A program made the position numbers and the translations under genes. This document shows positions 6,172 to 52,238 of a stretch of DNA of 64,000 bases, piece by piece. The DNA comes from Bacillus sp. ISL-41. Its GTDB lineage: Bacteria > Bacillota > Bacilli > Bacillales > Cytobacillaceae. Under the pieces are notes generated by a model. The model was not told the DNA's origin and searched no databases. It was given only the letters and a program-made list of their open reading frames with translations. Location of the stretch: positions 1 through 64,000 of the forward strand of contig NZ_JAGGQP010000007.1 in assembly GCF_018613235.1 (NCBI RefSeq). Reading direction: 5' to 3'. Every line of letters begins with the position of its first letter. Within the stretch, counting starts at the first letter, position 1.

Positions 6172-6747
6172 GTGGTTATTGTGACAGGTTTCAGGCTGCA
6201 GAGCCCAAAGTTGTCAAGAAAACGTGATTATTGTGACAGGTTTCAGGCTGCAGAGCCCAAAGTTGTCAAGAAAACGTGATTATTGTGACAGGTTTCAGGC
6301 TGCAGAGCCCGAAGCTGTCAAGAAAACGTGGTTATTGTGACAGGTTTCAGGCTGCAGAGCCCAAAGCTGTCAAGAAAACGTGATTATTGTGACAGGTTTC
6401 AGGCTGCAGAGCCCAAAGCTGTCAAGAAAACGTGGTTATTGTGACAGGTTTCAGGCTGCAAAGCCCAAATTTGTCAAGAAAACGCGGTAATTGTGACAGG
6501 TTTCAGGCTGCAGAGCCCAAAGCTGTCAAGAAAACGTGATTATTGTGACAGGTTTCAGGCTGCAGAGCCCAAAGCTGTCAAGAAAACGTGATTATTGTGA
6601 CAGGTTTCAGGCTGCAGAGCCCAAAGCTGTCAAGAAAAGCTCCGGATTCAGACAGGTTTGAGGCGCAAAGCACAAAAGCTGTCAAAATAAAGCTCCGTAT
6701 TCAGACAGGTTTGAGGTGTAATCCCAAAAGCTGTCTGAATCAGCCCC
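6172..6747. repeat. 52-bp tandem repeat array (9 near-identical plus 2 diverged units)
   Basis: Nine units start at 6172, 6224, 6276, 6328, 6380, 6432, 6484, 6536 and 6588, exactly 52 bp apart and nearly identical; two diverged units follow (from about 6639 and 6692). Each unit contains TGACAG and CTGTCA spanning 35 nt, an inner GGCT/AGCC stem and TTT/AAA pairs, then a 17-nt linker. In the last unit the stem grows to 10 bp (ATTCAGACAG/CTGTCTGAAT) and its outer T-A pair becomes A-T. There are no unique spacers, so it is not CRISPR. It lies between convergent genes and encodes no credible protein. Confidence 0.9.
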
Positions 6748-6786
6748 AGATTTCCCGCTAAACGATACCCAGTAGGCGAATCACAA

Positions 6787-6987
6787 TCACCAATCATCCT
6801 TTTTAACCCGGGAACGATACAACTTAAAATTCCCGGTGGCGATTCGATTGTTCGTCTTTTCGGCAATTCGTTCATTGCATGGTTCACACATATATGTATG
6901 GATCGGCCTGTTCCTGAGCCGCTTCGCCTGAAGGGTATCGCTGTTAATATTCTCGATTTTGTCGCACAGTACACATTTGACTCTCAT
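6787..6987 (-). CDS. ylaI: YlaI family small zinc-ribbon protein (DUF2197)
   Basis: A 66-residue protein with two CxxC knuckles (C5/C8 and C34/C37), consistent with a single zinc ribbon, and a basic C-terminus. This is the YlaI/DUF2197 pattern, and the location between ylaH and ylaJ agrees. I chose ATG at 6987 (MRVKCVLC) because AGAGGTG sits 6 bases upstream; an in-frame TTG further upstream would overlap this site. Function is unknown, possibly nucleic acid binding. Confidence 0.82.
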   Translation of the reverse strand: MRVKCVLCDKIENINSDTLQAKRLRNRPIHTYMCEPCNERIAEKTNNRIATGNFKLYRSRVKKDDW

Positions 6988-7143
6988 TCTTACACCTCTT
7001 ATCAATAATTATCATACATAGCCTGGTTGAGATTGGATTATATTATAGTATATCATTGTTTCCAGACTGAACAGGGGAAATCATTTGATTTGCCCTGCCT
7101 AAACAATTCGTAGTACTATTATGATAGTGTAAGGAGGGTGAAT

Positions 7144-7599
7144 ATGGCAAATCAAGTGGAACCTAAACTAATCAAACCATTGTTTGATGAAATGCAAAAA
7201 GAGCGTTTTGTCACCTTGGCAACAGTGGACCATGAAACCAGCGGCCCGAATGTAAGTGCGATTTCATGGGTGTTGGCAAAAGATGAGAAAACGGTTTATT
7301 TTGCAGTGGATAACCGTTCTAGAATCATCGAGAATATCAAGAGCAATAACAAAGCAGTAATCAACCTGATCGCAAATGAATCTACATATTCAATCAGCGG
7401 GACAGCAAGCGTCAAGCAGGAAAAGCTTGAAGGTGTACCTTTGAAGCTGGCGTTAGTCGAAATCAAAATCACCGAAGTAAGGGACGTTATGTTCTATGGA
7501 TCAAAAATCGTCGCTGAACCTCAATACGACAAGACATATGATAAAGACGCTGCGGCACGCCTGGATAATCAGGTAATGGATGCAATGAGAAAAGCTTAG
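7144..7599 (+). CDS. Pyridoxamine 5'-phosphate oxidase-like (FMN split-barrel) protein
   Basis: A 151-residue protein of the FMN-binding split-barrel fold. The pattern RFVTLATVD...PNVSAISWV followed by TVYFAVDNRSRIIENI and AVINLI matches PNPOx-like proteins. The specific flavin or F420-type substrate cannot be inferred. I chose ATG at 7144 because the GTG at 7138 is inside the AAGGAGGGTG ribosome binding site. The stop codon is embedded in a bidirectional terminator shared with ylaJ. Confidence 0.82.
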   Translation: MANQVEPKLIKPLFDEMQKERFVTLATVDHETSGPNVSAISWVLAKDEKTVYFAVDNRSRIIENIKSNNKAVINLIANESTYSISGTASVKQEKLEGVPLKLALVEIKITEVRDVMFYGSKIVAEPQYDKTYDKDAAARLDNQVMDAMRKA

Positions 7600-7619
7600 T
7601 CGATGACTAAGCTTTTTTT
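7590..7619. terminator. Bidirectional terminator between PNPOx-like gene and ylaJ
   Basis: Near-perfect stem AAAAGCTTAGTC/GACTAAGCTTTT with a 3-base loop, A-run on one side and T-run on the other, between convergent genes. Confidence 0.88.
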
Positions 7620-8202
7620 ATTTATGGTAATTAGATTGTTGTTCCTGTTCCTTTTCCAATTGTTTTTTCTCACCATCGTCCAGTTTCTTCTTGGGATCCT
7701 CAGTCGGGCTTTTAGTCTGCGGCTCAATCATATCGGCTGGAACCTCAGGCATAACTCTTCCGGTTATGTCAGAAAGCTCGTTCATAATACCCCGGATAGG
7801 CTGGCCGTTTTGTATATCCTCAGATATCTCCCTTAATCTCGCTGTGATATCAGGGTCCGCAACAACGACTGCCCTGGCACCGTGCGGGTCTTTCTTTAAT
7901 GCTTCCGCCACAGTATATTTAACAGTATCTACCTCTGACCTCTCCATCTTATCCTTAACGTCGATTCCCACTATCGCATAGCGTCCGACTACCACAGCAG
8001 CGGCATCATCCACATTCGGGATGTGAGTGGTTAAGCTCACAAGATGGCGGGATATCTCCTGGCCTGATTGGCGGTCAACATCTTCTATTGCACTATTCTG
8101 GACCTTGACCTTATGATCTTCGTCAGCATTGTTGGCGTTGTTCTGTCCGTTGCACGCAGTCATTAGCAGCACAAACGTAATGGCAGCGACCAATCTTATC
8201 AT
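7618..8202 (-). CDS. ylaJ: YhcN/YlaJ family sporulation lipoprotein
   Basis: A 194-residue predicted lipoprotein. The N-terminus is a lipoprotein signal ending LLMTAC, so Cys would be lipidated. A YhcN/YlaJ domain follows, with AAAVVVGRYAIVGIDV and the ARAVVVADPDI segment, then a low-complexity charged C-terminus (EKKQLEKEQEQQ). Family members are found in spore membranes and affect germination or spore structure. I chose ATG at 8202, which has GGAGGGG upstream and gives a proper signal peptide; upstream in-frame codons add a poor leader. Confidence 0.88.
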   Translation of the reverse strand: MIRLVAAITFVLLMTACNGQNNANNADEDHKVKVQNSAIEDVDRQSGQEISRHLVSLTTHIPNVDDAAAVVVGRYAIVGIDVKDKMERSEVDTVKYTVAEALKKDPHGARAVVVADPDITARLREISEDIQNGQPIRGIMNELSDITGRVMPEVPADMIEPQTKSPTEDPKKKLDDGEKKQLEKEQEQQSNYHK

Positions 8203-8522
8203 CAATGAACCCCTCCGATTATTTATTCGTAAAAAGTCCTTATCACACAACTAGGAATTAAAATGAGGAAGACTGTTTCCTAGCCAGTATTCCCTTATAT
8301 TTTTCTTGTATTTTTTCCCTGAACCTTCCTACTGGATATTGCCTCGAAGTGGGAATAAACAGGCAACAAAGTTTCCAACAGGAGCTGTAAAAAAGAAATG
8401 CTCAAAGGTTATTGTGCAAAATATCTTCTATCTTTATTCAAAAAGTCATATATTTTACCAAAGTCCCGGCCAAGGCTGCCAAGTTGGCCAAAGTCGAGAT
8501 CAATAAGGCGGGAGGCATCAAT
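8203..8522. other. Divergent intergenic region ylaJ/ylaK
   Basis: Contains no credible gene. The phoH-like reading frame is open upstream but the residues are not family-like. A small inverted repeat GGCCAA/TTGGCC (8468-8489) lies about 35 bases before the ylaK start. I could not identify a confident promoter. Confidence 0.4.
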
Positions 8523-9863
8523 TTGAGTAAAATATACGTACTGGATACAAACGTCTTACTACAGGATCCGCACGCGATTTTTTCTTTTCAAGACAATGAA
8601 GTTGTCATACCTGCTGTAGTTCTGGAGGAAGTGGATTCAAAGAAAAGATATATGGATGAGATTGGGCGCAACGCACGCCAGGTTTCAAGGCTTATAGACG
8701 GCATGAGGGAAACAGGTAAGCTGCATGAAAAAATCAACCTTGAGGGCGGTGGAACGCTTCGGATTGAGCTGAACCACCGATCTTTCCATCAACTGCAGGA
8801 AATCTTCGTTGAAAAAACAAATGACAATCGAATACTGGCAGTAGCTAAAAACCTGAGTCTTGAAGAGGAAACGAAGGAAGATGGGCGTCCGGTAATCCTT
8901 GTTAGTAAGGACGCGCTTGTCCGTGTCAAAGCAGATGCCATCGGGCTGATCGCTGAAGACTTTTTAAGTGACAGGGTTGTGGAAATTAACCATCTGTATT
9001 CGGGCTATGCAGAAGTGTATTTGGAAATAGAAGAGCTCAATCACTTTTATGAAAGAGGAGAACTGAATATCTCTGATTTAAAGGGGCAAAACTTTTTTTA
9101 CCCAAATCAGTTTGTGATTATGAAGGATATTCTCGGCAGTTCAGCTTCCGCAATAGGCATGGTCGATACAAAAGGTAAAAAAGTGAAAAAACTTGTTTTT
9201 GAACATGAGGGCAAACACATATGGGGAATCAAGCCAAGAAATGTTCAGCAGATCATGGCGATGGAACTGCTTTTACGGCAAGACATGCCTCTGATCACTT
9301 TGACAGGGAGGGCAGGCACAGGGAAAACCTTGCTCGCATTGGCATCAGGCCTTCTGCAGACCGAGGACTTGGGCATATTTAAAAAACTGCTTGTAGCAAG
9401 GCCGATTGTGCCAGTAGGAAAGGATTTAGGGTTCTTGCCAGGTGAAAAACAGGAAAAACTCAGACCATGGATGCAGCCTATTTATGATAATCTTGAATTC
9501 CTTTTCAATACAAAAAAACCTGGAGAGCTTGATGCCATACTGGCAGGAATGGGTTCAATCGAGGTAGAAGCATTAACGTATATAAGGGGCAGGAGCATAC
9601 CTGATCAATTCATTATTATTGATGAAGCACAAAACCTGACAAAGCATGAAGTGAAGACCATCCTGACAAGGGTTGGGGAACGCAGTAAAATCGTCTTGAT
9701 GGGTGACCCTGACCAAATTGACCATCCATACCTGGACGCTTATAATAATGGCCTGACGTATGTGGTGGAAAAATTCAAAGACCAGCAGATTGCCGGTCAC
9801 GTCCGGCTCGTTAAAGGAGAAAGATCACCTCTTGCCCAGCTCGCAGCCGATCTGTTGAATTGA
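8523..9863 (+). CDS. ylaK: PhoH family ATPase with N-terminal PIN domain (YlaK/PhoH2)
   Basis: A 446-residue two-domain protein. Residues 1-140 form a PIN ribonuclease-like domain (VLDTNVLL at the start, later acidic EVDSKK and TNDNRILAVA). The C-terminal PhoH ATPase has Walker A GRAGTGKT near residue 263, the PVGKDLGFLPGE motif and Walker B IIIDEAQN. PhoH2 proteins of this layout are sequence-specific RNA helicase/RNases in mycobacteria; the Bacillus role is less clear. The start is TTG at 8523, 6 bases after GGGAGG, giving the family's usual length. Confidence 0.92.
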   Translation: MSKIYVLDTNVLLQDPHAIFSFQDNEVVIPAVVLEEVDSKKRYMDEIGRNARQVSRLIDGMRETGKLHEKINLEGGGTLRIELNHRSFHQLQEIFVEKTNDNRILAVAKNLSLEEETKEDGRPVILVSKDALVRVKADAIGLIAEDFLSDRVVEINHLYSGYAEVYLEIEELNHFYERGELNISDLKGQNFFYPNQFVIMKDILGSSASAIGMVDTKGKKVKKLVFEHEGKHIWGIKPRNVQQIMAMELLLRQDMPLITLTGRAGTGKTLLALASGLLQTEDLGIFKKLLVARPIVPVGKDLGFLPGEKQEKLRPWMQPIYDNLEFLFNTKKPGELDAILAGMGSIEVEALTYIRGRSIPDQFIIIDEAQNLTKHEVKTILTRVGERSKIVLMGDPDQIDHPYLDAYNNGLTYVVEKFKDQQIAGHVRLVKGERSPLAQLAADLLN

Positions 9864-9896
9864 TATTCTGTACTTGATATTTGGGAAGAGGCCATT

Positions 9897-9925
9897 ATAA
9901 AACGGGCATCCATATGATGCCCGTT
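9897..9925. terminator. Bidirectional terminator ylaK/ylaL
   Basis: Perfect 10-bp stem AACGGGCATC/GATGCCCGTT between convergent genes; the T-rich tail is better on the minus strand, serving ylaL. Confidence 0.7.
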
Positions 9926-9941
9926 GGCAGTGCTCTATAGC

Positions 9942-10442
9942 TTATTCCACTATGAACCCGGTAACATTTTTGATGGGGCTATCTTTATTGGAGCCATCCT
10001 TGTAATATACATACAGTGGTCCGTCTTCCTTCAATGGTTTGCCGTCCTTGGAAAATCCGAGAATGATACCAGAAGCTTCTTCGAGGGAAAGAGCTATCCG
10101 ATCATTGTCGCCGTATTCGATTACAACAGTAGAAGCATTTTGATCTGGTTCAGCATTTACAAGAAATGGCTTGAAGGGAATGCCGAAAGTGCCTGTCAGG
10201 ACTTTCTCCTTTTCGAACTTAACTTCTGTTTTCAGTGTTGGCGGATAAACGGCACCCTCCATAATTTCACGGTCCCAATGCTTCGAGACAGATTTCGTAT
10301 ACTCCTCAAGGGCATCATCGGTTTTCTGGCCTTCATTGAAATATGTATTCAAATCTACTTTGCGGTCGTCGAAAATCCAGACACCCGGATCCAAAGTGAT
10401 TTTGTATTTGACTCTTCCTCCGATAGGGATGATTGTTTCCAT
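9942..10442 (-). CDS. ylaL: YlaL-like conserved protein
   Basis: A 166-residue soluble protein beginning METIIPIGGRVKYKITLDPG. I identify it as YlaL mainly from position between ylaK and ylaN and similar size; B. subtilis YlaL has been annotated as peptidyl-prolyl isomerase-like without firm evidence that I know of. The repeated beta-strand pattern (TVVIEYGDN, PLYVYYKDG) suggests a beta-rich fold. The ATG at 10442 follows AGGAGG by 5 bases; the upstream in-frame ATG is within that site. Confidence 0.6.
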   Translation of the reverse strand: METIIPIGGRVKYKITLDPGVWIFDDRKVDLNTYFNEGQKTDDALEEYTKSVSKHWDREIMEGAVYPPTLKTEVKFEKEKVLTGTFGIPFKPFLVNAEPDQNASTVVIEYGDNDRIALSLEEASGIILGFSKDGKPLKEDGPLYVYYKDGSNKDSPIKNVTGFIVE

Positions 10443-10558
10443 AATTTCCTCCTGCATTTTTACATATATTATTTATTCAGTATAACGATATTTTTGTAAG
10501 TTGTCATTTCAACTCCTCTATAGCGGGCTAACCATTAAATTCTGCATCCCTAATATTC

Positions 10559-10587
10559 TTGCTTTTTTGTCCACTTAAGGGTAAAAT
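10559..10587 (+). promoter_or_regulatory. Possible sigma-A promoter of ylaN
   Basis: TTGCTT and TAAAAT separated by 17 bp, about 45 bases upstream of the ylaN start. Confidence 0.35.
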
Positions 10588-10631
10588 TTAAAGATAGGAT
10601 TGGGTAATCGCTCGGAAACGGGGGGATCAAG

Positions 10632-10913
10632 TTGGCGTCTGATATGATAATCAACCATCAGGAAAAAGCCCATGCCTTATTAAAGGCTGACGCTGATAAA
10701 ATTTTAAAGCTGATCAAAGTGCAAATGGATAACCTGACAATGCCTCAATGCCCTCTTTATGAAGAGGTTTTAGATACGCAAATGTTTGGATTATCGAGAG
10801 AGATAGATTTTGCAGTAAGGCTCGGCTTAATCGAAGAATCAGATGGGAAAGAAATTCTCGACCAATTGGAACAAGAGCTTTCCATATTGCATGAAGCTTC
10901 GTTAAAAAAATAA
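10632..10913 (+). CDS. ylaN: YlaN (UPF0358), iron-homeostasis protein
   Basis: A 93-residue all-helical protein. The stretches [32 protein letters not shown] and [12 protein letters not shown] are characteristic of YlaN/UPF0358. From the literature, YlaN is conditionally essential in Bacillus and Staphylococcus and is linked to Fur-dependent iron regulation. The start is a TTG after GGGGGATCAAG. A strong terminator follows, so it is probably monocistronic. Confidence 0.92.
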
Positions 10914-10920
10914 AATCCTA

Positions 10921-10959
10921 AAAACTCAAACAGTCCTAAACGATTGTTTGAGTTTTTTT
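10921..10959 (+). terminator. Terminator of ylaN
   Basis: Stem AAAACTCAAACA/TGTTTGAGTTTT with a 12-base loop and T-run. Confidence 0.88.
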
Positions 10960-11145
10960 GTGAAGACTTTTGCGGATGTCACTTACATAAGTTTTAAGTT
11001 TTTCCAGTTTAGGCGGCTTCTCGTAAACTGCATTACATTTCGATGACAATATATTAAGAATTCCATAACTTTTCCTTTAACAAAGGCAGGATATTTCAAC
11101 TTATAGTAGAATAGATTAAACAACTTAGAAGATGGGGAAGAGACG

Positions 11146-12345
11146 ATGTTTAAAAAAATACTGAAATCCTATGACTATTCATTGATCATTGTTGTAGCGC
11201 TCTTGAGCTTGTTCGGCCTTGTGATGGTTTATAGTGCCAGCATGGTCACCTGGCATGGAGTAGACAGTGATTTCTTTTATGACAAACAAAAATTCAATTT
11301 GGTAACAGCTCTGTTTGTATTTATTTTAGCGGCCTTATTTCCCTACAAAGCAATGAGAAGCACCAGGATCTTACTTCCTATGGTGATCGTAACTCTATCA
11401 GGCTTACTCATCCTGTTCGTGGTAGGTAAAGTAGCGGGTAATGCCCTTAGCTGGATAGAAGTTGGAGCCAGGAGCATCCAGCCATCGGAGCTTGCTAAAT
11501 TAAGTGTCATTATCTATCTATCAGCTGTGTATGCAAATAAACAATCATATATAAATGAATTCAATAGAGGTGTACTCCCGCCTTTGCTATTTCTGGTCAT
11601 GGTGTTTTTCCTTATCGCTGTTCAGCCTGACTTCGGTACAGCAGGCATTATCATGCTGATTGCAGCATCGATCATTATGTCTTCAGGCATGAATTTTAAA
11701 AATATCCTGAAGCTGGTAATGATTGTAGTGATATTATTGGTGCCTGTTTCGCTAATACTAAAAGATGAAGTATTTTCGGAGCGGCGATTGGAGCGTCTTA
11801 CCTCATATAGCAACCCTTTCAATGATGAACAAAAATCCGGATATCAGCTGGCTAATGCCTATTATGCAATTGGTTCCGGCGGACTGACAGGACTTGGATT
11901 GGGAGAAAGTAATCAAAAGCTTGGGTATTTGCCTGAAGCACACACCGATTTCATCATTGCAGTTATATCGGAGGAGTTGGGGATTTTCGGTGTAGGCTTT
12001 GTGCTGTTGAGCCTGGCCTTCATCGTTCTGAAAGGGATTCATATCGGGCTTAAGTGCAAGGATCCCTTTGGCAGTTTGTTGGCAATTGGGATTGCCAGTA
12101 TGATTGGGATTCAGTCATTCGTTAATCTTGGGGGAGCTTCCGGTGTCATACCGCTGACAGGAGTGCCGCTGCCATTTGTGAGCTATGGAGGTTCTTCCTT
12201 GCTGCAGCTCGCAATAGCGATGGGTATTTTGGTGAATGTTTCGATGTTTGTTAAATATGAAGAGAAGTACAAAAAGGACAAGACAGCTCAGCCTAAACCT
12301 GCAAAAGTTGCAGTAAACCAAAATTCGTATAGGTTCAGGTCTTAG
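11146..12345 (+). CDS. ftsW: SEDS family septal peptidoglycan polymerase FtsW
   Basis: A 399-residue polytopic membrane protein with about ten helices, a SEDS-type glycosyltransferase working with the septal class B PBP (PBP2B here). Motifs include VMVYSAS near the first helix, SWIEVGARSIQPSELAK, the QPDFGT segment and the C-terminal PLPFVSYGGSSL. Position upstream of the cta genes and the absence of sporulation context mark it as vegetative ftsW; spoVE is the paralog at 58884. The start ATG follows GGGGAAGAG. Confidence 0.93.
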   Translation: MFKKILKSYDYSLIIVVALLSLFGLVMVYSASMVTWHGVDSDFFYDKQKFNLVTALFVFILAALFPYKAMRSTRILLPMVIVTLSGLLILFVVGKVAGNALSWIEVGARSIQPSELAKLSVIIYLSAVYANKQSYINEFNRGVLPPLLFLVMVFFLIAVQPDFGTAGIIMLIAASIIMSSGMNFKNILKLVMIVVILLVPVSLILKDEVFSERRLERLTSYSNPFNDEQKSGYQLANAYYAIGSGGLTGLGLGESNQKLGYLPEAHTDFIIAVISEELGIFGVGFVLLSLAFIVLKGIHIGLKCKDPFGSLLAIGIASMIGIQSFVNLGGASGVIPLTGVPLPFVSYGGSSLLQLAIAMGILVNVSMFVKYEEKYKKDKTAQPKPAKVAVNQNSYRFRS

Positions 12346-12353
12346 TCCTTGAG

Positions 12354-12394
12354 AAAATAAAAAGCTGCAGCATACGCTGCAGCTTTTTATTTTA
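12354..12394. terminator. Bidirectional terminator ftsW/ctaA
   Basis: Long perfect stem (AAAATAAAAAGCTGCAGC and its complement) with a 4-base loop between convergent genes; it overlaps the ctaA stop codon. Confidence 0.9.
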
Positions 12395-13343
12395 CCGTTG
12401 CCGGAGAAAGTTCAACGGGTTTAGGGTTTTTCACTCTGGCGGCATTCTTCTTGCTCCTGGAAACTAATAGGATAAAGTAGCTGAATACTCCGAACAGAAC
12501 AGAGATGAAGAAAGCGTGTCCCAGGGCGATGTACAAGTTCAGCCTTGTGTAGATAATCAAAGCGCCGGCAATAACCTGAAGTGACACAAGGATCATGGAA
12601 ATGATCCATCCCCAGTACAGAACTCTTTCATGTTTGTAATGTTTGACGGCAATGTAGGTGACATATGCAATCCAAATGAAAATGAATCCTGCAGCAGCTC
12701 TGTGCCCCATCTGTACCCATTCGTAAATGTTGGTAGGGAGGAAGGATCCGCCATTCGTACACAATGGCCAGTCCTTGCATACAAGGCTTGCATTCATATG
12801 TCTGACCAGCGCTCCTGTATAAACGACGATATAGCTGTAAACAGCTAGTCCGATTATATGGAACCTCATCCTTTTATCGATTACCAGCTTTTCAGCCTGA
12901 AACTTTTGATCGACTTCAAAAATAAGCATGGTCAATAAAAGGACAGCGGCAAAAGAAATGAGCGAAATGCCGAAGTGCAGTGCCAGGACAAAATCAGATT
13001 GGCCCCATACTACAGCAGCTGCACCGATCAATGCCTGAAGAACAAGGAAGAAAAAAGATAAAACAGCTAAAAACTTCGTTTCGCGTATGTGCCCGATAGC
13101 CTTCCAAGTCCAAATGGACAAAATAAGCACCATAATGCCTACGCTGCCCGACACTAATCTGTGGGCAAGTTCAATTACCAATTCCGGAGTTATATCAGTA
13201 GGAACGAATTCCCCGTTACAAAGAGGCCAGGATTTGCCGCACCCCATTCCGGATTCAGTTTTGGTAACCAAAGCTCCTCCGAGCAAAACAAAAAGCATCC
13301 CAATGGTGGTTAAAACAGCCAGCCACTTAAGGGAACGATTCAT
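12387..13343 (-). CDS. ctaA: Heme A synthase CtaA
   Basis: Integral membrane enzyme that oxidises heme O to heme A for cytochrome aa3/caa3 oxidase. The 318 residues give eight predicted helices with the four expected histidines: ELAHR near 60, ALHFG near 123, MGHRA near 216 and ALGHA near 280. Two cysteine pairs lie in the extracytoplasmic loops, CGKSWPLC and CKDWPLC. I chose ATG at 13343 (MNRSLKWL), which has AGCAGGTGA upstream; upstream ATGs add a non-family leader. It is divergent from ctaB as in B. subtilis. Confidence 0.94.
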
Positions 13344-13959
13344 GATCATCACCTGCTTATTCATAGTTCGATAAGTTGTCAAATAATAAACTTGACATGT
13401 ATAATAGAAGAAGCTTGTAGAAAAGAAAAAATTCTACCCCTATAATAACGAATTTTGACGAAAAAGGATAGAAAACAATACTTAAGATACTACACAATAA
13501 TAGTTAATATTTCAATACTTACTATTATAGATGGACAACAAACGGTTTTATCGGTAAAATGCATTTGGCAATAACAAGGTGCTATATATTATGGAATTAC
13601 ATACCAGCATTTTTACAAACATGAAAATATTATCCAAGAATATGTATATTCAAAAAAAGAAGCTCTTCAAACAATCTATTAAGAACAAGTTAAAATTCCT
13701 TGCAATAAAAATGAAGTTTATGGATAATGGCGGTAAGACACAAATTAGTCAAATTTTGTTCAAAAAAAATTCACAAAAAAGTTGTGAAGTGTGATTTAAT
13801 ATACAACGTAGGCTTTATTTTTCTACACAAACATTTAACAGCCTTAACACGTTGAGAATAGTGAAAACTATCCGGAATATAAAGTACAAATACTCTTCTT
13901 TTTTTTGTAAAAATTTCGTCTCTGGAATTTTAAAGGAAAAGGGATGAAGGAGGATATGG
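13344..13959. other. Long A/T-rich ctaA-ctaB divergent regulatory region
   Basis: Over 600 bases with no believable gene. It is strongly A/T-rich. TTGTCA (13376-13381) and TATAAT (13400-13405) sit 18 bp apart on the + strand. A perfect 7-bp inverted repeat lies at 13770-13788. In B. subtilis this interval carries ResD-dependent control of ctaA and ctaB. Confidence 0.5.
13770..13788. promoter_or_regulatory. Candidate operator palindrome upstream of ctaB
   Basis: Perfect inverted repeat TTCACAA-5-TTGTGAA, about 170 bases before ctaB. The half-site TTGTGAA resembles those of redox regulators (ResD, Rex, Fnr), although the half-sites point outward relative to the classic Rex/Fnr arrangement. Which protein binds, if any, is unknown. 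Confidence 0.35.
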
Positions 13960-31384: not shown

Positions 31385-31414
31385 TTATTTGCAGCCTTTT
31401 TTAAGGCAAAAAAA

Positions 31415-31565
31415 AAGCCCTGCAGTTTCTGCAGGGTCCTTCTATATCCTGTCAACAGGATAGAAGGCAAAGGGAGAGGAGAAACCGGAGGAAGAACTTA
31501 TGGGGAAACGTAAGTCTTCTCCGCGGTTGGCAACAACATCCTCAAATTGATGTTGTTAATCATCA
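31415..31565 (+). ncRNA. Candidate ylbH leader RNA upstream of rsmD
   Basis: A chain of hairpins upstream of rsmD (ylbH): CCCTGCAG/CTGCAGGG (31418-31436), a bulged stem CTTCTA-ATCCTGT/ACAGGATAGAAG (about 31438-31467), a long imperfect stem from AACCGGAGGAAG to CTTCTCCGCGGTT (about 31480-31530), and AACAACATC/GATGTTGTT (31530-31557). Structured RNA upstream of ylbH (the ylbH leader) has been catalogued in Bacillus from comparative genomics; I match by location and structure. A poly-A run before the first hairpin would make it a minus-strand terminator as well. Limits are approximate. Confidence 0.62.
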
Positions 31566-42370: not shown

Positions 42371-42383
42371 AGGAGGAAAAGAC

Positions 42384-44159: not shown

Positions 44160-44163
44160 AAAC

Positions 44164-44240: not shown

Positions 44241-44295
44241 TAACCCATACAGTTATCCACATTGCAATTATTTTTATAATTACCTGCAAAAAAGT

Positions 44296-44335: not shown

Positions 44336-44520
44336 AGGAAAAATGAAGGTTCTATCAAAATTAATTCAAATAACCATAATCCCTTCTTCCTAATAAACCA
44401 TTGTTTCTGCTAAAATATGACTAAAGTCATTGTATATCGGTGTCAAATTTAATAGATTTTCATTATAAAAGCACAAATGTTCTTTCATTTTATTTTTTAA
44501 GGGCAGGATGAGGGGTTTTT

Positions 44521-45411
44521 ATGAAAATAGGAATAATCGGCGGCGGCTCAATAGGATTATTATTCTCTTATTACCTAAGCTTGCACAATGAGGTTTCTGT
44601 CTACACAAGGACACAGGAACAAGCAGACCTAATTAACGAACACTGTCTTCGTCTTGTAAAAGGTGGAATAGAGCAGGCTCCATTACAGGTAGCTGCTGCT
44701 CCAATCCAGAAATGGAGGGGGAGCGAAGATTTAACTGTTGTTGCGGTGAAGCAGTACCAGCTCTCCAGTTTAATATCTGACCTGAAAGATAAGGCCAAAG
44801 GAAGCATCCTTTTCCTTCAAAATGGCTATGGCCATATTAAAATGCTCTCGGAGCTGGCAGCAAATGATATTTTGGTTGGTTCTGTTGAACATGGAGCTGT
44901 CAGAGTGAACGGATATACAGTTCAGCACAATGGTGTGGGTGTAACCAGAACTGCAGTTTTTAGAGGAGATTCAGGCTTCCTTGGAGAATTATCTACAATA
45001 ACAAGTTTTCCATTTATCATGGAACGTGACTACAAAGAGATGCTCGTCAAAAAATTGGTGGTCAACGCGGTGATCAATCCATTGACGGCAATCCTTAAAG
45101 TGAAAAATGGAATGCTGATCCAAAATCCTTTTTATTTTGAGATCTTTAAGCAATTGTTTGATGAATGCGCTTATGTACTTGAACTGCCTAATCGGGAACA
45201 GTACTTCAGTAATCTTATGGCAGTTTGCGAAAAAACAGCAAATAACTATTCATCCATGTATAAGGATATTGAAAATGGCAGGCAGACAGAAAATGATGCC
45301 ATTCTCGGGTATTTGCTGGAATTAGCCAGAAGCAAAAATAAAAAAGCTCCATTAATACATAACTACTATCACTGCATAAAGGGGAAGGAGCACGAAAGGG
45401 AGGGAGCATAA
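44521..45411 (+). CDS. panE: 2-dehydropantoate 2-reductase (PanE)
   Basis: NADPH-dependent ketopantoate reductase of pantothenate/CoA synthesis, 296 residues. The dinucleotide-binding loop IGIIGGGSIGLLFSYYLS lies at residues 3-20; the catalytic Lys region is KKLVVNAVINPLTAIL near 179-194, and SSMYKDIENGRQTE, binding the substrate, near 245-258. Equivalent to B. subtilis YlbQ. The stop overlaps the start of the next gene by one base (TAATG). Confidence 0.92.
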   Translation: MKIGIIGGGSIGLLFSYYLSLHNEVSVYTRTQEQADLINEHCLRLVKGGIEQAPLQVAAAPIQKWRGSEDLTVVAVKQYQLSSLISDLKDKAKGSILFLQNGYGHIKMLSELAANDILVGSVEHGAVRVNGYTVQHNGVGVTRTAVFRGDSGFLGELSTITSFPFIMERDYKEMLVKKLVVNAVINPLTAILKVKNGMLIQNPFYFEIFKQLFDECAYVLELPNREQYFSNLMAVCEKTANNYSSMYKDIENGRQTENDAILGYLLELARSKNKKAPLIHNYYHCIKGKEHEREGA

Positions 45412-45800
45412 TGCCGGGATTCTTCTCCGCACTTGTTGCCACATTGATCACAGTTCCAATGATTGGCTACCTCACTGTGTTCATTATCAGTAAGCAAATT
45501 ACAGGCAACCATCGGCGTTCGGTCAATATGGCCCTTGACTTTAGCACCTTTTTGCTGGTACTGTCTGTCCATTTTTTGATCATCACCATCTGGAACAAAT
45601 CGTACCTATGGCTGATCCTGATCATCTTATTTGGGCTAGCGGCTATATTTGTTTTGATTCACTGGAAATATAAAGAGGAAATCTTGTTGCCGAAGGTTTT
45701 CAAGGGCTTTTGGCGCTTCAATTTCCTGCTTTTCTTTTCAGCCTACATCGTCCTCGTGTTATATGGTTTGTTCAAACGACTGACATTCCTGTTTGCTTAA
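45411..45800 (+). CDS. DUF3397 family membrane protein
   Basis: A 129-residue protein with four predicted membrane helices and a basic loop. The pattern matches DUF3397 proteins found between panE and bshC in Bacillaceae. The function is unknown. It overlaps the panE stop codon by one base and is followed by a terminator, so it forms a panE operon. Confidence 0.82.
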   Translation: MPGFFSALVATLITVPMIGYLTVFIISKQITGNHRRSVNMALDFSTFLLVLSVHFLIITIWNKSYLWLILIILFGLAAIFVLIHWKYKEEILLPKVFKGFWRFNFLLFFSAYIVLVLYGLFKRLTFLFA

Positions 45801-45805
45801 ACTAG

Positions 45806-45844
45806 TGTTGGACCGTCCTAATAGAGGGTCCAGCATTTTTTTTT
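45806..45844 (+). terminator. Terminator of panE-DUF3397
   Basis: 9-bp stem TGTTGGACC/GGTCCAGCA (one G-U pair), 12-base loop, long T-run. Confidence 0.85.
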
Positions 45845-45977
45845 AGCTTATCCTAATCTTGATTAAAAAAAATCTTGATTTTAGAAATTTCGAAAGGCAA
45901 AGTTTTTTTCTTTTCGATTCAAACAATGCTATACTCATAACAGTGAAAATTGCTTACGAGAAAGGAAGTACAAGTTA

Positions 45978-47612
45978 ATGGAGATGTTGAATCTCTCTCT
46001 TCCGGCTGCGAACCGGTTTGCGACAGATTATCTAACTGGAAGCCCTGGGCTGCAGAGCTTCTTTCATTATAATTTCAACGATAAAAACGCATATATCCAC
46101 CGCCTGGATGAATTGAAAAATAGAAGCTTTATGAGGCAGGAACTTGCAGACCATATCCAGTCCTTTATGTCCCGTTATGCGAATTCCGAAAAAATCACTG
46201 ATAATATCAATAAGCTGAGAAAAGAAAATAGCGTTGCTGTCATCGGAGGCCAGCAAGCCGGTATTCTGACTGGTCCGCTATATACAATCCATAAAGTGAT
46301 TTCAATTATCAAGCTTGCTGAGCAAAAAGGGGCTGAGCTTGGCGTTCCTGTCGTACCCGTATTCTGGATTGCCGGGGAAGACCATGACTATCAGGAAGTT
46401 AACCATGTGTATGTCATGAAGGACAATAAGCAGGAAAAGTGGGTTTATCCTGAAAAGAACCTGGAGAAAAAAATGATTTCAGAAGTGTGTATAAACAGGG
46501 ACCTTTGCTATTCCTGGGTTGAAGAAATCATCGAAACCTATGGAGAGACGAAGCACACGAAAGAGGTATTGGACTTTGCTCTTGAATCGTTGAGGACTGC
46601 TGAATCCTTCGTTGATTTTTTTGCAACCATCATTATGGAGCTATTCAAAGATTCAGGCTTGCTGATCGTAGATTCTGGAAATAAAGAGCTGCGCAGGCTT
46701 GAAAAAGACTATTTCATCAATCAAATCAAAAATCATCGTGAAATCACGTCTGCTGTTCTTGGCCAGCAGGAACGGACAGCTGGTGCTGGATTTGCGAATA
46801 TGATCGATATTAGCGAAAATGCAGCAAACCTTTTCTTTTACGATGAAAAAGTAAATGAGCGGATTTTGCTCCAGTTTGACCCACAAAGTGGAGGGTTTTC
46901 AGGTAAAAATGGAGAAGTCAGCTTCACATATGAAGAGCTGGTGGAGATTGCGAACGAATATCCTGAAAAGCTGAGCAATAATGTCGTTACTCGTCCGCTA
47001 ATGCAGGAGTGGCTGTTCCCAACGCTGGCGTTCATTGGCGGACCCGGGGAAATTGCCTATTGGGCTGAGCTGAAACTTGCTTTCGAACATTTTAGTCTAA
47101 AAATGCCGCCGCTTGTTCCAAGACTCAACATAACACTTCTCGAAAGGTCGATTGAGTCTGACCTTGAAGAACTGAACCTTGATTTGAAAGAGGTTTTAAT
47201 TTCTGGAACAAATGGTCATGAGCTGAAATTTATCGATTCTCTAAAGGATCGTGAAGTAGAAGAACTTTTCGAGAATGTAAAAACGATGCTGTCAGATCAA
47301 TATAAAGTCATCCGTGAAAAATCCAACGGAATCGACCCCGTATTGATGCCTATGCTCCAGAAGAACGAATCCATCCTGATTAAGCAGGTTGAATTCATGG
47401 AGGATAAAATCGTAGAGGCAATTTGCCGAAAGCATGACCATATTCTGCGCAAATTCACAAGAGTAGAAAATGCATTAAGGCCAGGCGGTTCACCTCAGGA
47501 AAGAGTCTGGAACCCATTCTACTATTTAAATAAGTTCGGATTGGATTTAATACCAGATTTACTAAAGATGGATTATGAATTCGATGGAACACATAAAATT
47601 ATTAAGCTTTAA
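45978..47612 (+). CDS. bshC: Bacillithiol biosynthesis cysteine-adding enzyme BshC
   Basis: Adds cysteine to glucosaminyl-malate in the final step of bacillithiol synthesis. 544 residues, the usual length (B. subtilis YllA). Motifs include VIGGQQAGILTGPLYTIHK (about 87-105), the PVFWIAGEDHDYQEVNH block (about 126-142) and FPTLAFIGGPGEIAYWAELK (about 346-365). The C-terminal half is coiled coil. The ATG has GAAAGGAAGTACAAGTTA upstream. Placed before mraZ, as in Bacillus. Confidence 0.95.
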   Translation: MEMLNLSLPAANRFATDYLTGSPGLQSFFHYNFNDKNAYIHRLDELKNRSFMRQELADHIQSFMSRYANSEKITDNINKLRKENSVAVIGGQQAGILTGPLYTIHKVISIIKLAEQKGAELGVPVVPVFWIAGEDHDYQEVNHVYVMKDNKQEKWVYPEKNLEKKMISEVCINRDLCYSWVEEIIETYGETKHTKEVLDFALESLRTAESFVDFFATIIMELFKDSGLLIVDSGNKELRRLEKDYFINQIKNHREITSAVLGQQERTAGAGFANMIDISENAANLFFYDEKVNERILLQFDPQSGGFSGKNGEVSFTYEELVEIANEYPEKLSNNVVTRPLMQEWLFPTLAFIGGPGEIAYWAELKLAFEHFSLKMPPLVPRLNITLLERSIESDLEELNLDLKEVLISGTNGHELKFIDSLKDREVEELFENVKTMLSDQYKVIREKSNGIDPVLMPMLQKNESILIKQVEFMEDKIVEAICRKHDHILRKFTRVENALRPGGSPQERVWNPFYYLNKFGLDLIPDLLKMDYEFDGTHKIIKL

Positions 47613-47616
47613 GTTT

Positions 47617-47646
47617 AAGCTTCATCCTTTGAGGATGGAGCTTTTC
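47617..47646 (+). terminator. Terminator of bshC
   Basis: Stem AAGCTTCATCC/GGATGGAGCTT with a 5-base loop and short T-tail. Confidence 0.65.
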
Positions 47647-47668
47647 TGTTTGAAAAGATAAACAACTC

Positions 47669-47930
47669 TACACTGCCCGAAAAGTAGCGAAAGGGTGAAT
47701 TACGGTAAAAGCAACGGCTTTGCATTGCCCGAAATGAAGTGGAAAGATGAAATATGGTAAAAGCTGCGCCTCTCCATTGCCCAAAATGAAATGAAAAGCG
47801 GGATTATGGTAAAAGCAACGGCTCTGCATTTGCCATAAAAGAAGTGAAAAGCTGGATTACGGTAAAAGGAGCCCCACTGCATTACCCAAAATGAAGAGAA
47901 ACGACGAGATACGGTAAAAGCAACTTTTTT
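47669..47930. repeat. 52-bp tandem repeat array, 5 diverged units, upstream of mraZ
   Basis: Units start at 47669, 47721, 47773, 47825 and 47878, so 52 or 53 bp apart. All carry TTGCC or TTACC near the start and GGTAAAA about 31 bp later, giving a hairpin spanning 36 nt (perfect in unit 5, TTACC/GGTAA; extended to TTTGCC/GGTAAA in unit 4). Units diverge at about a third of positions, unlike the array at 6172. No ORF is credible. It fills most of 47613-48059. Confidence 0.78.
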
Positions 47931-48059
47931 GAAATGAAAGAAATTGATGGAAATGAATATTACTAGAAGGATTTTAGGGGCGTGGGGAGAATAATTAAAA
48001 TAAGGTGGTGAAAAGTGGGGGAATGTGGTACATTGTATTTAGAAAGTGGGGGTAGTGGC

Positions 48060-48491
48060 ATGTTCATGGGTGAATACCATCATAATGTTGATAGCAAAGG
48101 CCGATTGATCATCCCTGCCAAGGTCCGTGAAAACCTGGGAGAAATGTTCATTCTTACCCGTGGACTTGACCAATGTTTATTTGGTTACCCCGTTTCTGAA
48201 TGGTCAGTGATTGAAGAAAAGCTTAAAGGACTTCCGCTGACTAAAAAAGATGCACGTGCATTTACCCGTTTTTTCTTTTCGGGTGCTACCGAGAGTGAAA
48301 TTGACAAGCAGGGGAGAGTAAATATTCCTTCCCCGCTGATGCAATACGCCAAGCTTGAGAAAGAATGTGTGATTTTAGGTGTTTCCAATCGAATTGAAAT
48401 TTGGAGCAAAGCCATCTGGGAAGAATATTTCGCAGAATCTGAGGAATCTTTTGCTGAAATTGCGGAAAATATGATTGGATTTGATATTTAA
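48060..48491 (+). CDS. mraZ: Transcriptional regulator MraZ
   Basis: A 143-residue DNA-binding protein of the MraZ/AbrB fold that autoregulates the division and cell wall cluster. Two SpoVT-AbrB half-domains are clear: [24 protein letters not shown] (about 4-27) and [21 protein letters not shown] (about 75-95), with [12 protein letters not shown] between them. I chose ATG at 48060 with GGGGGTAGTGG upstream, matching B. subtilis MraZ length; upstream in-frame codons are poorly conserved. First gene of the dcw cluster. Confidence 0.93.
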
Positions 48492-48548
48492 GGGTAACAT
48501 TATTCTGATATAATATTACCTGCTCCTCGATTGGAAAGGTGGATCATG

Positions 48549-49487
48549 ATGTTCAAACATACAACAGTTTTACTGGAAGAAACAGTAGACGGGCTAGATA
48601 TCAAGCCTGACGGTACATATGTGGATTGCACTCTCGGTGGCGCAGGCCACAGTGAATTAATTTTGTCCAAGCTTTCGGAAAAAGGAAAGCTATACGCATT
48701 TGACCAGGACGATATTGCAATTGCGAATGCAAAAGAGAAGCTTGCTGCTTATGGCGACAGGCTGACGATTATCAAGAGCAATTTCCTTTATTTACAGGAA
48801 GAGCTTGAAAAATTGGGTGTAACAGAAGTGGATGGAATTCTGTATGATTTGGGAGTTTCCTCACCGCAGCTGGATACACCGGAACGTGGCTTCAGTTATC
48901 ACCATGATGCTCCGCTTGATATGCGGATGGACCAGGATGCACCATTGTCCGCTTATGATGTGATTAATGAATGGCCATATGAAAAATTGGTCAAAATCTT
49001 TTTCCAGTATGGGGAAGAGAAGTTTTCAAAGCAAATTACCCGCAAGATTGAGGCAGCGAGGGAAAGTAAACCCATTGAAACAACTGGTGAACTTGTCGAA
49101 TTGATCAAGGATGCGATTCCTGCACCTGCAAGGAGAAAAGGCGGTCACCCGGCCAAACGAGTTTTTCAGGCAGTCAGGATTGCGGTTAATGATGAGCTTG
49201 GTGTATTTGAAAAATCGCTTGAGCAGGCAATCGATCTCCTGTCCGTTGGAGGTAGGATCAGCGTCATCACCTTCCACTCACTTGAAGACAGGATTTGCAA
49301 GGTAACCTTGAAAAAAGCGAGTGAAACACCTCCGCTTCCACCAGGCTTGCCGATCATACCTGAAGAATACCAGCCAAAATTGAAGCTGATTACAAGGAAG
49401 CCGATCCTTCCGTCAGAGGAAGAGCTGGAATTCAATAACCGGGCAAGATCCGCAAAGCTGCGCATCGCTGAAAAAGTAAAAAAATAA
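48549..49487 (+). CDS. rsmH: 16S rRNA (cytosine1402-N4)-methyltransferase RsmH
   Basis: SAM-dependent methyltransferase of 312 residues. Motifs: [16 protein letters not shown] (about 27-42), [20 protein letters not shown] (about 99-118) and the VISFHSLED-like [15 protein letters not shown] near 238-252. I chose the second of two adjacent ATGs (48549), giving [16 protein letters not shown] as in B. subtilis; the first ATG is too near the AAAGGTGG site. Followed by ftsL as in other firmicutes. Confidence 0.95.
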
Positions 49488-49527
49488 AAAAAAAAAATAT
49501 AAAATATAATTTTCAGGAGGGAAAATG

Positions 49528-49884
49528 ATGAGCAATCTGGCTAGAAAATTGCAGCAAGAACAGCAGCAGCGCACTGTTCAGGCACCGGCAAAAGCGCCGG
49601 CAAAACGCAATTCGATACTGACGCCCGGCGAAAAAATCCTGATGTTTGTTTTTGGGGCAATTGTTTGCTTCGGCGCGACATTCATGGTTTCAAAACAGGC
49701 AGCCATTTACGAAGTCAATAAAGAAATTCAAATCATTGAAGGCAGCATTCAGGAGCAGCAAAAGATTAACGGTGACCTTGAAGTCCAGATTAGCGAATTA
49801 AGTACCTATGAAAGAATCAAAAAGGTAACAGAGAAGCTCGGTTTAACATTGAACGAAGACAATGTTAAGGGTGTTGAAAACTGA
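49528..49884 (+). CDS. ftsL: Cell division protein FtsL
   Basis: A 118-residue single-pass protein with a Gln-rich cytoplasmic N-terminus, one helix (about 33-53) and an extracytoplasmic coiled coil (EVNKEIQIIEGSIQEQQKIN). FtsL forms the FtsL-DivIC-DivIB subcomplex of the septum. Two adjacent ATGs are possible; I used the second, 7 bases from AGGAGG. Its stop overlaps the pbpB start by one base (TGATG). Confidence 0.88.
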   Translation: MSNLARKLQQEQQQRTVQAPAKAPAKRNSILTPGEKILMFVFGAIVCFGATFMVSKQAAIYEVNKEIQIIEGSIQEQQKINGDLEVQISELSTYERIKKVTEKLGLTLNEDNVKGVEN

Positions 49885-52094
49885 TGATTAAGAAACAGCC
49901 AAATATGAATGCGGGAGCAGCGGTATTATTCGTAATATTCAGCCTGCTCTTTTTTATCTTGATTTTCAGGTTCGTAACGATCCAGGTTACGGGAGAAGTA
50001 CACGGGCAAGCCCTGGCTGCAAGGGCACAGCAAAAGTACACGAATGAAAAAGTAATCGAGGCGACCAGAGGAACGATCTTTGACCGCAAAGGTGAAGTGG
50101 TTGCGGAGGATACGACTGCCTACACGCTTGTGGCCATCCTAAACGATTCAGTAACAACGAATAAGAAGAAGCCGAAGCATGTAAGCGACCCTGCGAAGAC
50201 CGCGGCAGTGCTGGCAAAGTATATAGATATGAGCGAATCGGAGATATACAAACGACTGACCAAAGAAAAAGCATGGCAGGTTGAATTCGGAAAAGCCGGC
50301 CGCGATATTTCTCATCAGACCAAGCGGGAAATCGAAGAGGAGAAACTTCCTGGGATCACTTTTTTACGAGATTCAAAGAGGTTCTATCCGAACGGTGTAT
50401 TTTCATCTCATTTAGTCGGATTTGTAGAGAAGGAAGAAACAAAAGATAAGAAAACAGTTACTGCCGGTCAGCTGGGCATTGAAAAAACGCTTAATGACGA
50501 ATTGACTGGCAAGAACGGCTCTCTATCATTTGAAAGTGATTTATGGGGTTTTCTTTTACCTGATGGAGAAAAGAAAGTCACACCAGCCAAGGATGGAAGC
50601 AATATATTTTTAACGATTGATAAAAAAATCCAAACATTTGTGGAGGATGCCGTCGATCGTGTTGATGAGGAATATAAACCAAAGAAAATCATTGCGGTCG
50701 TCGCTGATCCGAAGACCGGAGATATCCTTGCAATGGCCCAGCGACCGAGCTTCCACCCGACGACAAGGGAAGGGCTGGATAATAGCTGGCATAATGAGGT
50801 GGTCGAAACACCGATCGAGCCAGGATCTACGATGAAGATTTTCACACTTGCTGCAGCAGTGGAGGAAAATAAATGGAATCCGAATGAACTCTATAAATCA
50901 GGTTCTTATAAAGTTACCGAAAATTCAAGAGCAATTCGCGACCATAACGGCAGTGGTTGGGGAACAATATCTTATTTGGAAGGCATCCAGCGTTCTTCTA
51001 ACGTAGCAGTTGCAAAGCTGGTAAATGAAAAAATCGGCACGGAAAAATTCCGTGAGTATTTGACTGATTTTGGCTTTGACCAACCTACGGGTATTGACCT
51101 TCCTAACGAGACATCTGGAACAATTGTCTATAAATGGCCGATTGAGAAAATTACGACTTCATATGGACAGGGAACCACAATCACGCCGATCCAGCTTATA
51201 CAGGCAGCCACAGCAGTAGCGAATGACGGGAAAATGATGAAACCGCGAGTGATTGATAAGATAGTCGATCCAAACACTGGTGATGTGATCAAGCAAGAGG
51301 CACCAAATTCTGTTGGCCAGCCTATATCTGCTGAAACTGCCAAGGCAGTTAGGGATGTTTTAGGGACTGTTGTCACTGGTGAGCATGGTACAGGGAAATC
51401 ATACGCAATCGATGGGTATGAGGTTGCCGGTAAAACAGGTACTGCGAACATAACAGCAAATGGCAGTTATTTAGATGGTGCAAGCGATTATCTGTTCTCA
51501 TTCCTTGGAATGGCACCAAAAGATGATCCAAAATTGATCGTCTATGTCGCAGTCCAGCAGCCGGAAATAGACCATTATTATAAAGGTTCTATTCCAACCT
51601 CCATGATTTTTAAATCAGTGATGAAAAGCAGCCTGCAATATTTAAATATTAAACCTGCCTCTGTGGAAAAGGCGGATTCCAGCCCGGTACCGGATGTAAC
51701 GGGTATGAGTGCCGCAGAAGCGAAGAGCTTGCTTGAATCCAAAGGGTTTGAAACAGTTGTTATCGGAGACGGAAACCAGGTGGAGGAGCAGTTGCCTAAG
51801 GCTGATATAATGGCACTCGAAGGTGAAAAAGTCTTTATCAGATCATCCGGAGTCATGACATACCCGGACATGACAGACTGGTCACTTAGAGATGTCATGA
51901 AGCTGGCGCAGATTGCAGAGATTAAGCTGAATAAAGCCGGCAGCGGTTACGTCACAAAGCAAAGCCTTAAGCCAGGAGTACCAATCAATGAAGGGGAGAA
52001 CCTGATTGTCGAGCTGGAAACCCCGCTTCAGCAATTTGAGAAATCATTAAAGACTGAGGAAGATAATGAAGAAACAGAGGAAGTGGGCGGATAA
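49884..52094 (+). CDS. pbpB: Penicillin-binding protein 2B (vegetative septal transpeptidase)
   Basis: A 736-residue class B PBP, the transpeptidase partner of FtsW in vegetative septation. Order: N-terminal helix (about 8-30), dimerisation domain (from about 60), transpeptidase domain, and two PASTA repeats (about 600-720, PDVTGMSAAEAKSLLESKGF and PDMTDWSLRDVMKL). Active-site motifs are intact: Ser315 in STMK, SSN near 371-373, and KTGT near 517-520. Starts ATG overlapping the ftsL stop. A strong terminator overlaps the C-terminal codons. Confidence 0.95.
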   Translation: MIKKQPNMNAGAAVLFVIFSLLFFILIFRFVTIQVTGEVHGQALAARAQQKYTNEKVIEATRGTIFDRKGEVVAEDTTAYTLVAILNDSVTTNKKKPKHVSDPAKTAAVLAKYIDMSESEIYKRLTKEKAWQVEFGKAGRDISHQTKREIEEEKLPGITFLRDSKRFYPNGVFSSHLVGFVEKEETKDKKTVTAGQLGIEKTLNDELTGKNGSLSFESDLWGFLLPDGEKKVTPAKDGSNIFLTIDKKIQTFVEDAVDRVDEEYKPKKIIAVVADPKTGDILAMAQRPSFHPTTREGLDNSWHNEVVETPIEPGSTMKIFTLAAAVEENKWNPNELYKSGSYKVTENSRAIRDHNGSGWGTISYLEGIQRSSNVAVAKLVNEKIGTEKFREYLTDFGFDQPTGIDLPNETSGTIVYKWPIEKITTSYGQGTTITPIQLIQAATAVANDGKMMKPRVIDKIVDPNTGDVIKQEAPNSVGQPISAETAKAVRDVLGTVVTGEHGTGKSYAIDGYEVAGKTGTANITANGSYLDGASDYLFSFLGMAPKDDPKLIVYVAVQQPEIDHYYKGSIPTSMIFKSVMKSSLQYLNIKPASVEKADSSPVPDVTGMSAAEAKSLLESKGFETVVIGDGNQVEEQLPKADIMALEGEKVFIRSSGVMTYPDMTDWSLRDVMKLAQIAEIKLNKAGSGYVTKQSLKPGVPINEGENLIVELETPLQQFEKSLKTEEDNEETEEVGG

Positions 52095-52112
52095 GCCCTT
52101 CCTCTGTTTTTT
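52072..52112 (+). terminator. Terminator overlapping the pbpB stop codon
   Basis: Strong hairpin AACAGAGGAAG-GGGC paired with GCCC-CCTCTGTT, followed by a T-run; the loop contains the pbpB stop codon. It separates mraZ-pbpB from spoVD. Confidence 0.85.
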
Positions 52113-52114
52113 TG

Positions 52115-52238
52115 TTTTGTCCGAAGTGTTATCAAGTTCGGACAAAACAGCATTCTTAGCTCCTCATTTTGTCTTAAGTCACACTGGGTTCGGACAAAAA
52201 TGCAGCCGAAGCTCTTCATTTTGTCAGAAGTGTCCCCC
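52115..52238. repeat. 52-bp tandem repeat array, 2 full plus 1 partial units, upstream of spoVD
   Basis: Units start at 52115, 52167 and 52219. Unit 1 has a perfect 11-bp stem TTTTGTCCGAA/TTCGGACAAAA spanning 33 nt and a 19-nt linker; unit 2 keeps TTTTGTC/GACAAAA; unit 3 is cut short. No ORF. The remaining 52239-52430 shows no gene and no sure promoter for spoVD. Confidence 0.8.

Follow-up and report, generated by a model that had tools for sequence, protein, structure and literature searches.

Constant-length 52-bp satellite arrays of a Mesobacillus-like genome share a 27-bp dyad and, within families, an orientation relative to replication

Why should three tandem arrays that differ in primary sequence, all within one 64,000-nucleotide stretch of the Bacillus sp. 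ISL-41 genome (contig NZ_JAGGQP010000007.1, positions 1 to 64,000 of the forward strand; hereafter the window), repeat at the same interval of 52 bp? An initial annotation had proposed that they belong to one repeat class of constant size in differing sequence versions, and stated that no described family had such properties. The first proposal was supported by a sharp mode in repeat period and by a dyad skeleton shared among arrays, while the second was wrong: the three arrays are members of the known constant-length 52-nt satellites of Bacillus, described by Subirana and Messeguer (PMC8161180) as repeats of constant length and variable sequence. The repeat unit consists of a 27-bp dyad and an asymmetric linker of about 25 bp, and within families the arrays are oriented with respect to replication. 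We tentatively favor the explanation that they are polar arrays of duplex DNA bound by a dimeric protein. The arrays are located as follows.

6164..6735, forward strand: array 1, in leading-strand orientation, with nine nearly identical units of 52 bp starting at 6182 and two diverged ones
47666..47930, forward strand: array 2, five units of 52 or 53 bp with 74% matches, dyad GGTA-N19-GCCC
52115..52238, forward strand: array 3, about 2.3 units, dyad TGTCCGAA-N11-TTCGGACA

The reported 52-bp period and the presence of a dyad in each unit were borne out by Tandem Repeats Finder (TRF), by self-identity and by the corresponding loci of related genomes. Array 1 (TRF score 851) shows a spacing of 53 bp once, among its diverged units, and its family, with the consensus GTGACAGSTTT..AAASCTGTCAAGAAAA, is the largest in the genome, comprising 23 of the 54 arrays examined. 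Array 3 was unlisted by TRF even at a score of 40, and its self-identity at a lag of 52 is 71%; it is a real short array, because arrays of its family occupy the same pbpB–spoVD site in three relatives, with 7.9 units in L100, 14.9 in L102 and 11.7 in L104. The array-2 family occupies the bshC–mraZ site in L100, L101, L102 and L104 as well, and is absent from L105 (M. subterraneus), in a comparison that excludes L103, which was not assessable. At the same site, M. subterraneus has a 21-bp array (L105:11676-11772) where the four relatives have a 52-bp array. The window genome itself is Mesobacillus-like: its bshC protein shares 97% identity with the Bacillus sp. ISL-45 protein and 92–93% with the proteins of M. 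selenatarsenatis and M. boroniphilus.

To quantify the class across the genome, we examined a sample of 1.264 Mb made up of the window and 60 stretches of 20 kb, placed on a fixed grid on contigs seen in array searches, of which L126 and L142 were known beforehand to hold an array. There were 41 non-coding tandem repeats with a period of at least 26 bp in this sample, 28 of them with a period of 52 and four with a period of 53, a strong excess (32 of 41) of the kind for which a genome-wide check had been suggested. Within the 50–54 range, 32 of 33 non-coding arrays had a period of 52 or 53 bp. According to a simple gene caller, 33 of the 34 sample arrays of period 50–53 were non-coding, and these occupied 12,225 of 1,264,000 bp (0.97%), a density that may be somewhat high and is not strictly unbiased, because the sampled contigs were known from array searches. 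No 52-bp array was present in two stretches of 20 kb taken from a further contig, C4. One 52-bp array of 13.8 copies (L129:16546-17263) was called 90% coding and excluded from the counts; this gene call is probably wrong, given that 52 cannot be divided by three. The ends of contigs C6, C49, C31, C52, C51 and C2 of the same genome fall inside 52-bp arrays, indicating that the draft assembly breaks there and that true copy numbers are under-counted. At the threshold used, the 54 arrays fell into 20 groups, 15 of which were singletons.

These characteristics agree with the published class. In that article, 4,029 repeats were found in 176 Bacillus genomes, 1,886 of 51–53 nt and 781 of 20–21 nt. 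They keep their length while varying in sequence, a species has several families of them, a repeat contains short signals together with their reverse, and conservation among strains is partial (PMC8161180). B. selenatarsenatis was listed there with 49 repeats of 51–53 nt common to B. boroniphilus and B. subterraneus, and repeats of the 52-nt type were described as abundant in Paenibacillus (PMC8161180). The arrays studied here show the same length, sequence variability, non-coding location and reverse signals (the 27-bp dyads), with presence in only some species, assessed for the TGTC version only; they share partly conserved positions with the published repeats, whose consensus sequences include TGTCC..GGACA types like those seen here (PMC8161180), and nothing sets them apart. 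The constant length was termed enigmatic and without known function, and roles in binding polymerizing proteins, in the nucleoid or as small RNAs were put forward; the sections consulted contain no instance of the words palindrome, orientation or leading (PMC8161180). The compensated 27-bp dyad, the replication lock, the helical phasing and the position described below are therefore additions to that article as far as the texts go, although an earlier paper of the same group may hold some of them. The initial annotation had missed the lock, the position behind genes and the 27-bp skeleton.

A search for pairs of TGTC dyads, which sees the TGTC version only and whose reversed-pattern control gave one match in three listed genomes, found the pattern in 56 of 299 genomes of the order, spread over 27 of 116 genera, with up to 598 matches per genome. 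Among 398 genomes of the phylum, 12 matched, two of them from the genus of the window; outside the order, no match listed had a spacing of 52, the nearest being 54. In another order of the phylum, genome G555 carries TGTC-N19-GACA in tandem at a period of 44 bp, and the linker is palindromic too (C39:6-120 and C40:21856-22014).

What the sequence versions have in common became apparent in a single register, in which each array shows a 27-bp dyad: TGTCA-N17-TGACA in array 1 and the dyads given above in arrays 2 and 3. The outer ends are TGTC/GACA or the variants GGTC/GCCC and GGTA/GCCC, a frame that array 2 and further families share with GGTA or GGTC and GCCC ends, and the inner arms are free in sequence yet complementary. 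An inverted repeat in a tandem array gives two dyads per period automatically. The inverted repeat of 33–36 nt drawn earlier for every unit held as a dyad and failed as a shared register, which is 27 bp, and the hairpin of array 2 is weak, with a single-strand DNA fold z of +0.83 compared to -3.66 for array 1 and -5.47 for array 3. In the sample, the TGTC-to-GACA offset has a single peak at 23 (115 occurrences, with 5–31 at other offsets up to 59), and a TGTC-N19-GACA dyad was followed by the next at 52 bp in 72 of 76 cases; at loci of other genera, the spacing was 52 bp in 61 and 51 bp in 14 of 84 cases. Compensation between the arms was evaluated in 26 hand-picked dyads of different families, in which the first four pairs are invariant through selection of the set. 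Double-change cells numbered 64 versus 25.1 ± 4.2 after shuffling (0 of 500 shuffles), and the covariation score was 0.495 versus 0.147 for shuffled and 0.097–0.173 for slid versions. Compensated 27-bp dyads are thus present in other arrays, where the lack of a centered dyad would have spoken against a common class. Pairing was high at 9–13 and at 6 positions from the center and low at 7–8. This profile recurred in three sets of arrays: 25 from the array-1 family, 12 more from this genome and 22 from other genomes, three of these 22 belonging to the same genus. Blocks of this kind resemble the half-sites of a protein better than they do a plain stem, although a hairpin is also compatible with them.

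Orientation was assigned relative to the leading strand, set for each contig by GC skew. Within families, 36 of 37 orientable arrays agreed with the leading strand (54 arrays examined, 17 not orientable): 23/23 in the array-1 family, 6/6 in the TGTCCGTCAT family, 4/5 in the TGTCCGATAG family (5/6 at the grouping step), 2/2 in the TGTCTA family, and one further array. The array-1 family is heavily represented among these arrays, having served to fetch loci, and the motif rules for orientation were drafted after the grouping results had been viewed. Automatic alignment placed 21 of the 23 array-1-family members in agreement with the skew, and L088 and L131 were reassigned by a conserved linker motif; for L088 the reassignment matches BLAST, and the leading strand was taken from neighboring stretches, local skew being near zero. 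Arrays followed replication between genes that oppose it (3/3), between convergent genes (9/9) and between divergent genes (4/4), indicating that gene direction is not the cause of the orientation.

The same arrangement was observed on complete chromosomes of the genus, where the array-1 family forms one block on the plus strand and one on the minus strand. Among the matches listed, agreement was 12/12 in G115, 11/11 in G243 and 18/19 in G286; the G286 and G243 contigs start at dnaA, and skew was measured at some places on G115 and G286 and only at the start on G243. A second family agreed in 11/11, 12/12 and 12/13 cases, respectively, with two more undecided near the terminus in G286. G103, from another genus and with its own sequence, agreed in 7 of 8 cases, the eighth lying no more than about 65 kb from the point where the skew switches. 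Pooling the sample with the first-named sets of these four chromosomes gives 84 of 87, a count in which inherited arrays at the same site are not independent. A published B. coagulans consensus had no match in G244 or G144, and G244 therefore could not serve as a further chromosome test.

The initial annotation had pointed out that 52 bp is about five helical turns, which would fit protein binding or nucleoid organization; the helical part of this idea gains support from the phasing of AA/TT dinucleotides at 52/5 = 10.4 bp. Compared to shuffles that preserve dinucleotides, the five-cycle component had a mean z of 1.42 ± 0.11 over 54 arrays, 1.44 for 23 class representatives and 1.17 ± 0.26 in 18 arrays of other genera, versus 0.20 ± 0.05 in array-free intergenic windows (400 of 2,903 windows). 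Other harmonics ranged from -0.67 to 0.28 over all arrays; the exceptions were 0.93 at four cycles in the array-1 family and 0.66 at six cycles in the class representatives.

Each array of the window lies directly downstream of a terminator recognized from the sequence and by a scan for terminator-like sites.

6066..6094, forward strand: intrinsic terminator ending the gene at 5768-6061, directly upstream of array 1
47618..47648, forward strand: intrinsic terminator ending bshC (45978-47612), directly upstream of array 2
52076..52113, forward strand: intrinsic terminator closing the pbpB-like gene (49884-52094), immediately before array 3

The 28 arrays with both neighbors known sit between convergent genes in 11 cases, co-directional genes in 15 and divergent genes in two, compared to 91, 508 and 150 reference intergenic gaps of at least 60 bp (p 0.0004 for the enrichment between convergent genes; p 0.14 for divergent genes). 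The median gap was 62 bp from an array to a gene end and 172 bp to a gene start. Of 57 gene ends that face an array, 34 are separated from it by a terminator-like site, and such sites occurred within 120 bp of 388 of 1,202 gene ends, the scanned lengths differing between the two counts. Two species-specific arrays stand directly behind a terminator where the sister species has an empty site, and at one empty-site locus a single decayed unit is left in M. boroniphilus. Other arrays are retained at the same sites across species (bshC–mraZ and pbpB–spoVD), with copy number at pbpB–spoVD ranging from about 2 to 15 units. Such rapid change in copy number, and a location where insertion is least harmful, would be expected if the arrays were neutral satellites, with slippage and unequal exchange spreading palindromic units, one orientation being unstable and the length of 52 kept by descent only. 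We consider this improbable, because a length of 51–53 has been kept over 27 genera despite sequence divergence and because neutrality does not account for helical phasing. In addition, G286 retains an array of 13 dyads that points the wrong way, so the opposite orientation is not simply unstable or lost.

Empty and filled species-specific sites directly behind a terminator also bear on the main and close rival of the explanation that we favor, in which the arrays are single-strand satellites: hairpins on the lagging-strand template would be excised, copied or inserted by an enzyme encoded elsewhere, and the orientation lock would reflect the route of insertion and not a function, as with the folded strands of IS200/IS605 elements and integron attC sites. 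Orientation locked to replication, arms that covary while their sequence is free, stable hairpins in four of five units and patchiness all suit this alternative, as does the insertion of IS608 and ISDra2 into the template of the lagging strand (PMC6006769). We nevertheless regard it as rather unlikely. On its own it leaves both the 52-bp length and the A-tract phasing unaccounted for, and the tolerance of mismatches is position-specific. A search for HUH transposases, made with PF01797 in this genome and one query for the REP-associated tyrosine transposase (RAYT) over the order, identified no mobilizing enzyme, and other enzymes were not searched. PF01797 found two RAYT genes in the genome (L166:1087-1881 and L167:1297-1863), each beside its own palindromes, of the AGCAGGGGGACGGTTCT and GGGGGTCTGACCCCC types, which are unrelated to the 52-bp units; the fetched flanks of both genes contained no 52-bp unit. 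At an E value of 1e-10, the query over the order had no match in five array-bearing genomes (G085, G194, G220, G001 and G021). RAYT was accordingly rejected as the mobilizer. As to carriers, one TGTCC version had no match among viral contigs and array 1 had none among plasmids, other versions not having been searched in either set.

It has also been suggested that transcribed arrays work as strings of RNA hairpins, as small RNAs or sponges (PMC8161180), and both the hairpin potential and the RNA-seq hits reported for B. coagulans (PMC8161180; PMC8625621) are consistent with this. Our results make such a role very unlikely. Mismatches of the G.T and A.C types on the leading-sense strand of the arms were about equally frequent (9 versus 10 array-positions in 36 arrays), and an RNA-type preference for wobble pairs is therefore unsupported. 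Orientation tracks replication even where it opposes both neighboring genes, terminator-like sites separate many arrays from the facing gene ends as described above, and no Rfam family matched an array at gathering score in the window and six loci.

We favor the duplex polar array because RAYT is unsupported as a mobilizer, because the searches of viral contigs with one TGTCC version and of plasmids with array 1 gave no carrier match and because the wrong-way array persists. Constraint on length without constraint on sequence, compensated arms, phasing, the replication lock, position and retention of sites are cited in its support. The arrays would act as duplex DNA, with dimeric DNA-binding proteins seated at the dyads, all along the same face of a curved helix, and each in contact with its neighbors. 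We propose that such contacts would fix the length of the unit, while the sequence may drift as long as the half-sites stay equal. The outcome would be a polar protein–DNA array outside transcription units, which machinery traveling with the replication fork would read, tolerate or copy in one orientation only. New arrays would begin as single units and then grow or shrink locally.

Several observations weigh against this explanation. Our analysis identified no binding protein for the dyad, and at least ten arm sequences within one genome would call for a set of paralogous proteins or for a reader of structure. Covariation of the arms is expected of a hairpin equally, and four of the five units tested form stable single-strand hairpins. 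A selfish element would likewise fit the patchy distribution and the empty sites, and RNA-seq hits indicate that B. coagulans repeats are transcribed (PMC8161180; PMC8625621). Wrong-way arrays do occur: L119, two in G286 (the 13-dyad array at 525 kb and another at 4,037 kb) and one in G103 at 2,336 kb. In this genome the purine-rich strand of the linker follows the leading strand, but among arrays of other genera 13 of 19 conformed and six did not, three of the latter being neighboring segments in G244. The idea of a rule valid for all genera was therefore dropped, and the replication lock is stated within families.

Several known systems resemble the arrays in part. REP-type palindromes are extragenic, occur in high copy downstream of genes and between co-directional or convergent genes, and form several families per genome (PMC3733652). 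The arrays share with REP, BIME and REPIN elements the extragenic location behind genes or between convergent genes and the multiplicity of families, but are head-to-tail arrays of one fixed unit without RAYT association. We know of no report of a replication lock as a property of REP sequences. IS200/IS605 and other single-strand elements of the lagging strand have hairpins and an orientation relative to replication in common with the arrays; the arrays differ in lacking ends and in being tandem with a fixed unit length, and the PF01797 and RAYT searches found no transposase for them. CRISPR arrays also combine regular repeats and partial palindromes, but here the linkers repeat along with the dyads and there are no unique spacers. 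The 20–21-nt Bacillus repeats (PMC8161180) likewise have a constant length near whole helical turns and variable sequence, and occur in this genome too, with two turns in place of five and no 27-bp dyad.

In the 1.264-Mb sample, the second period mode lies at 19–21 bp (29 arrays). Over periods of 18–22 bp, this second constant-length class comprises 32 non-coding arrays with the motifs TATAGCGA, GGTCGAATTAATT, TTCGCGGAAT and others, located in L060–L145 (e.g., L113:759-872, L137:11639-11800 and L130:2603-2716). Of these, 27 lie on stretches with negative GC skew, compared to half of the 60 stretches overall; as contig strand should be arbitrary, this bias may point to one chromosomal region. 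Elsewhere in the window are a direct duplication of 210 bp with 91% matches (105-511) and a ylbH leader RNA (31408-31526; RF00516, 114.3 bits).

It is conceivable, though we hold it with some doubt, that the 52-bp satellites of Bacillales are phased arrays coated by protein, about 100 per genome, whose direction informs the replisome, the nucleoid or segregation, or else that they are seeded through single-stranded DNA of the lagging-strand template. Either reading, if true, would describe a bacterial satellite with a strict strand rule. Together with a defined, compensated dyad and helical phasing, the strand rule turns a long-unexplained class into testable statements: which protein binds the dyad, what follows when an array is flipped, and which gene is common to the species that bear arrays. 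The answers would also be relevant to the question of why 52-bp array DNA accounts for about 1% of the sequence sampled from this genome.

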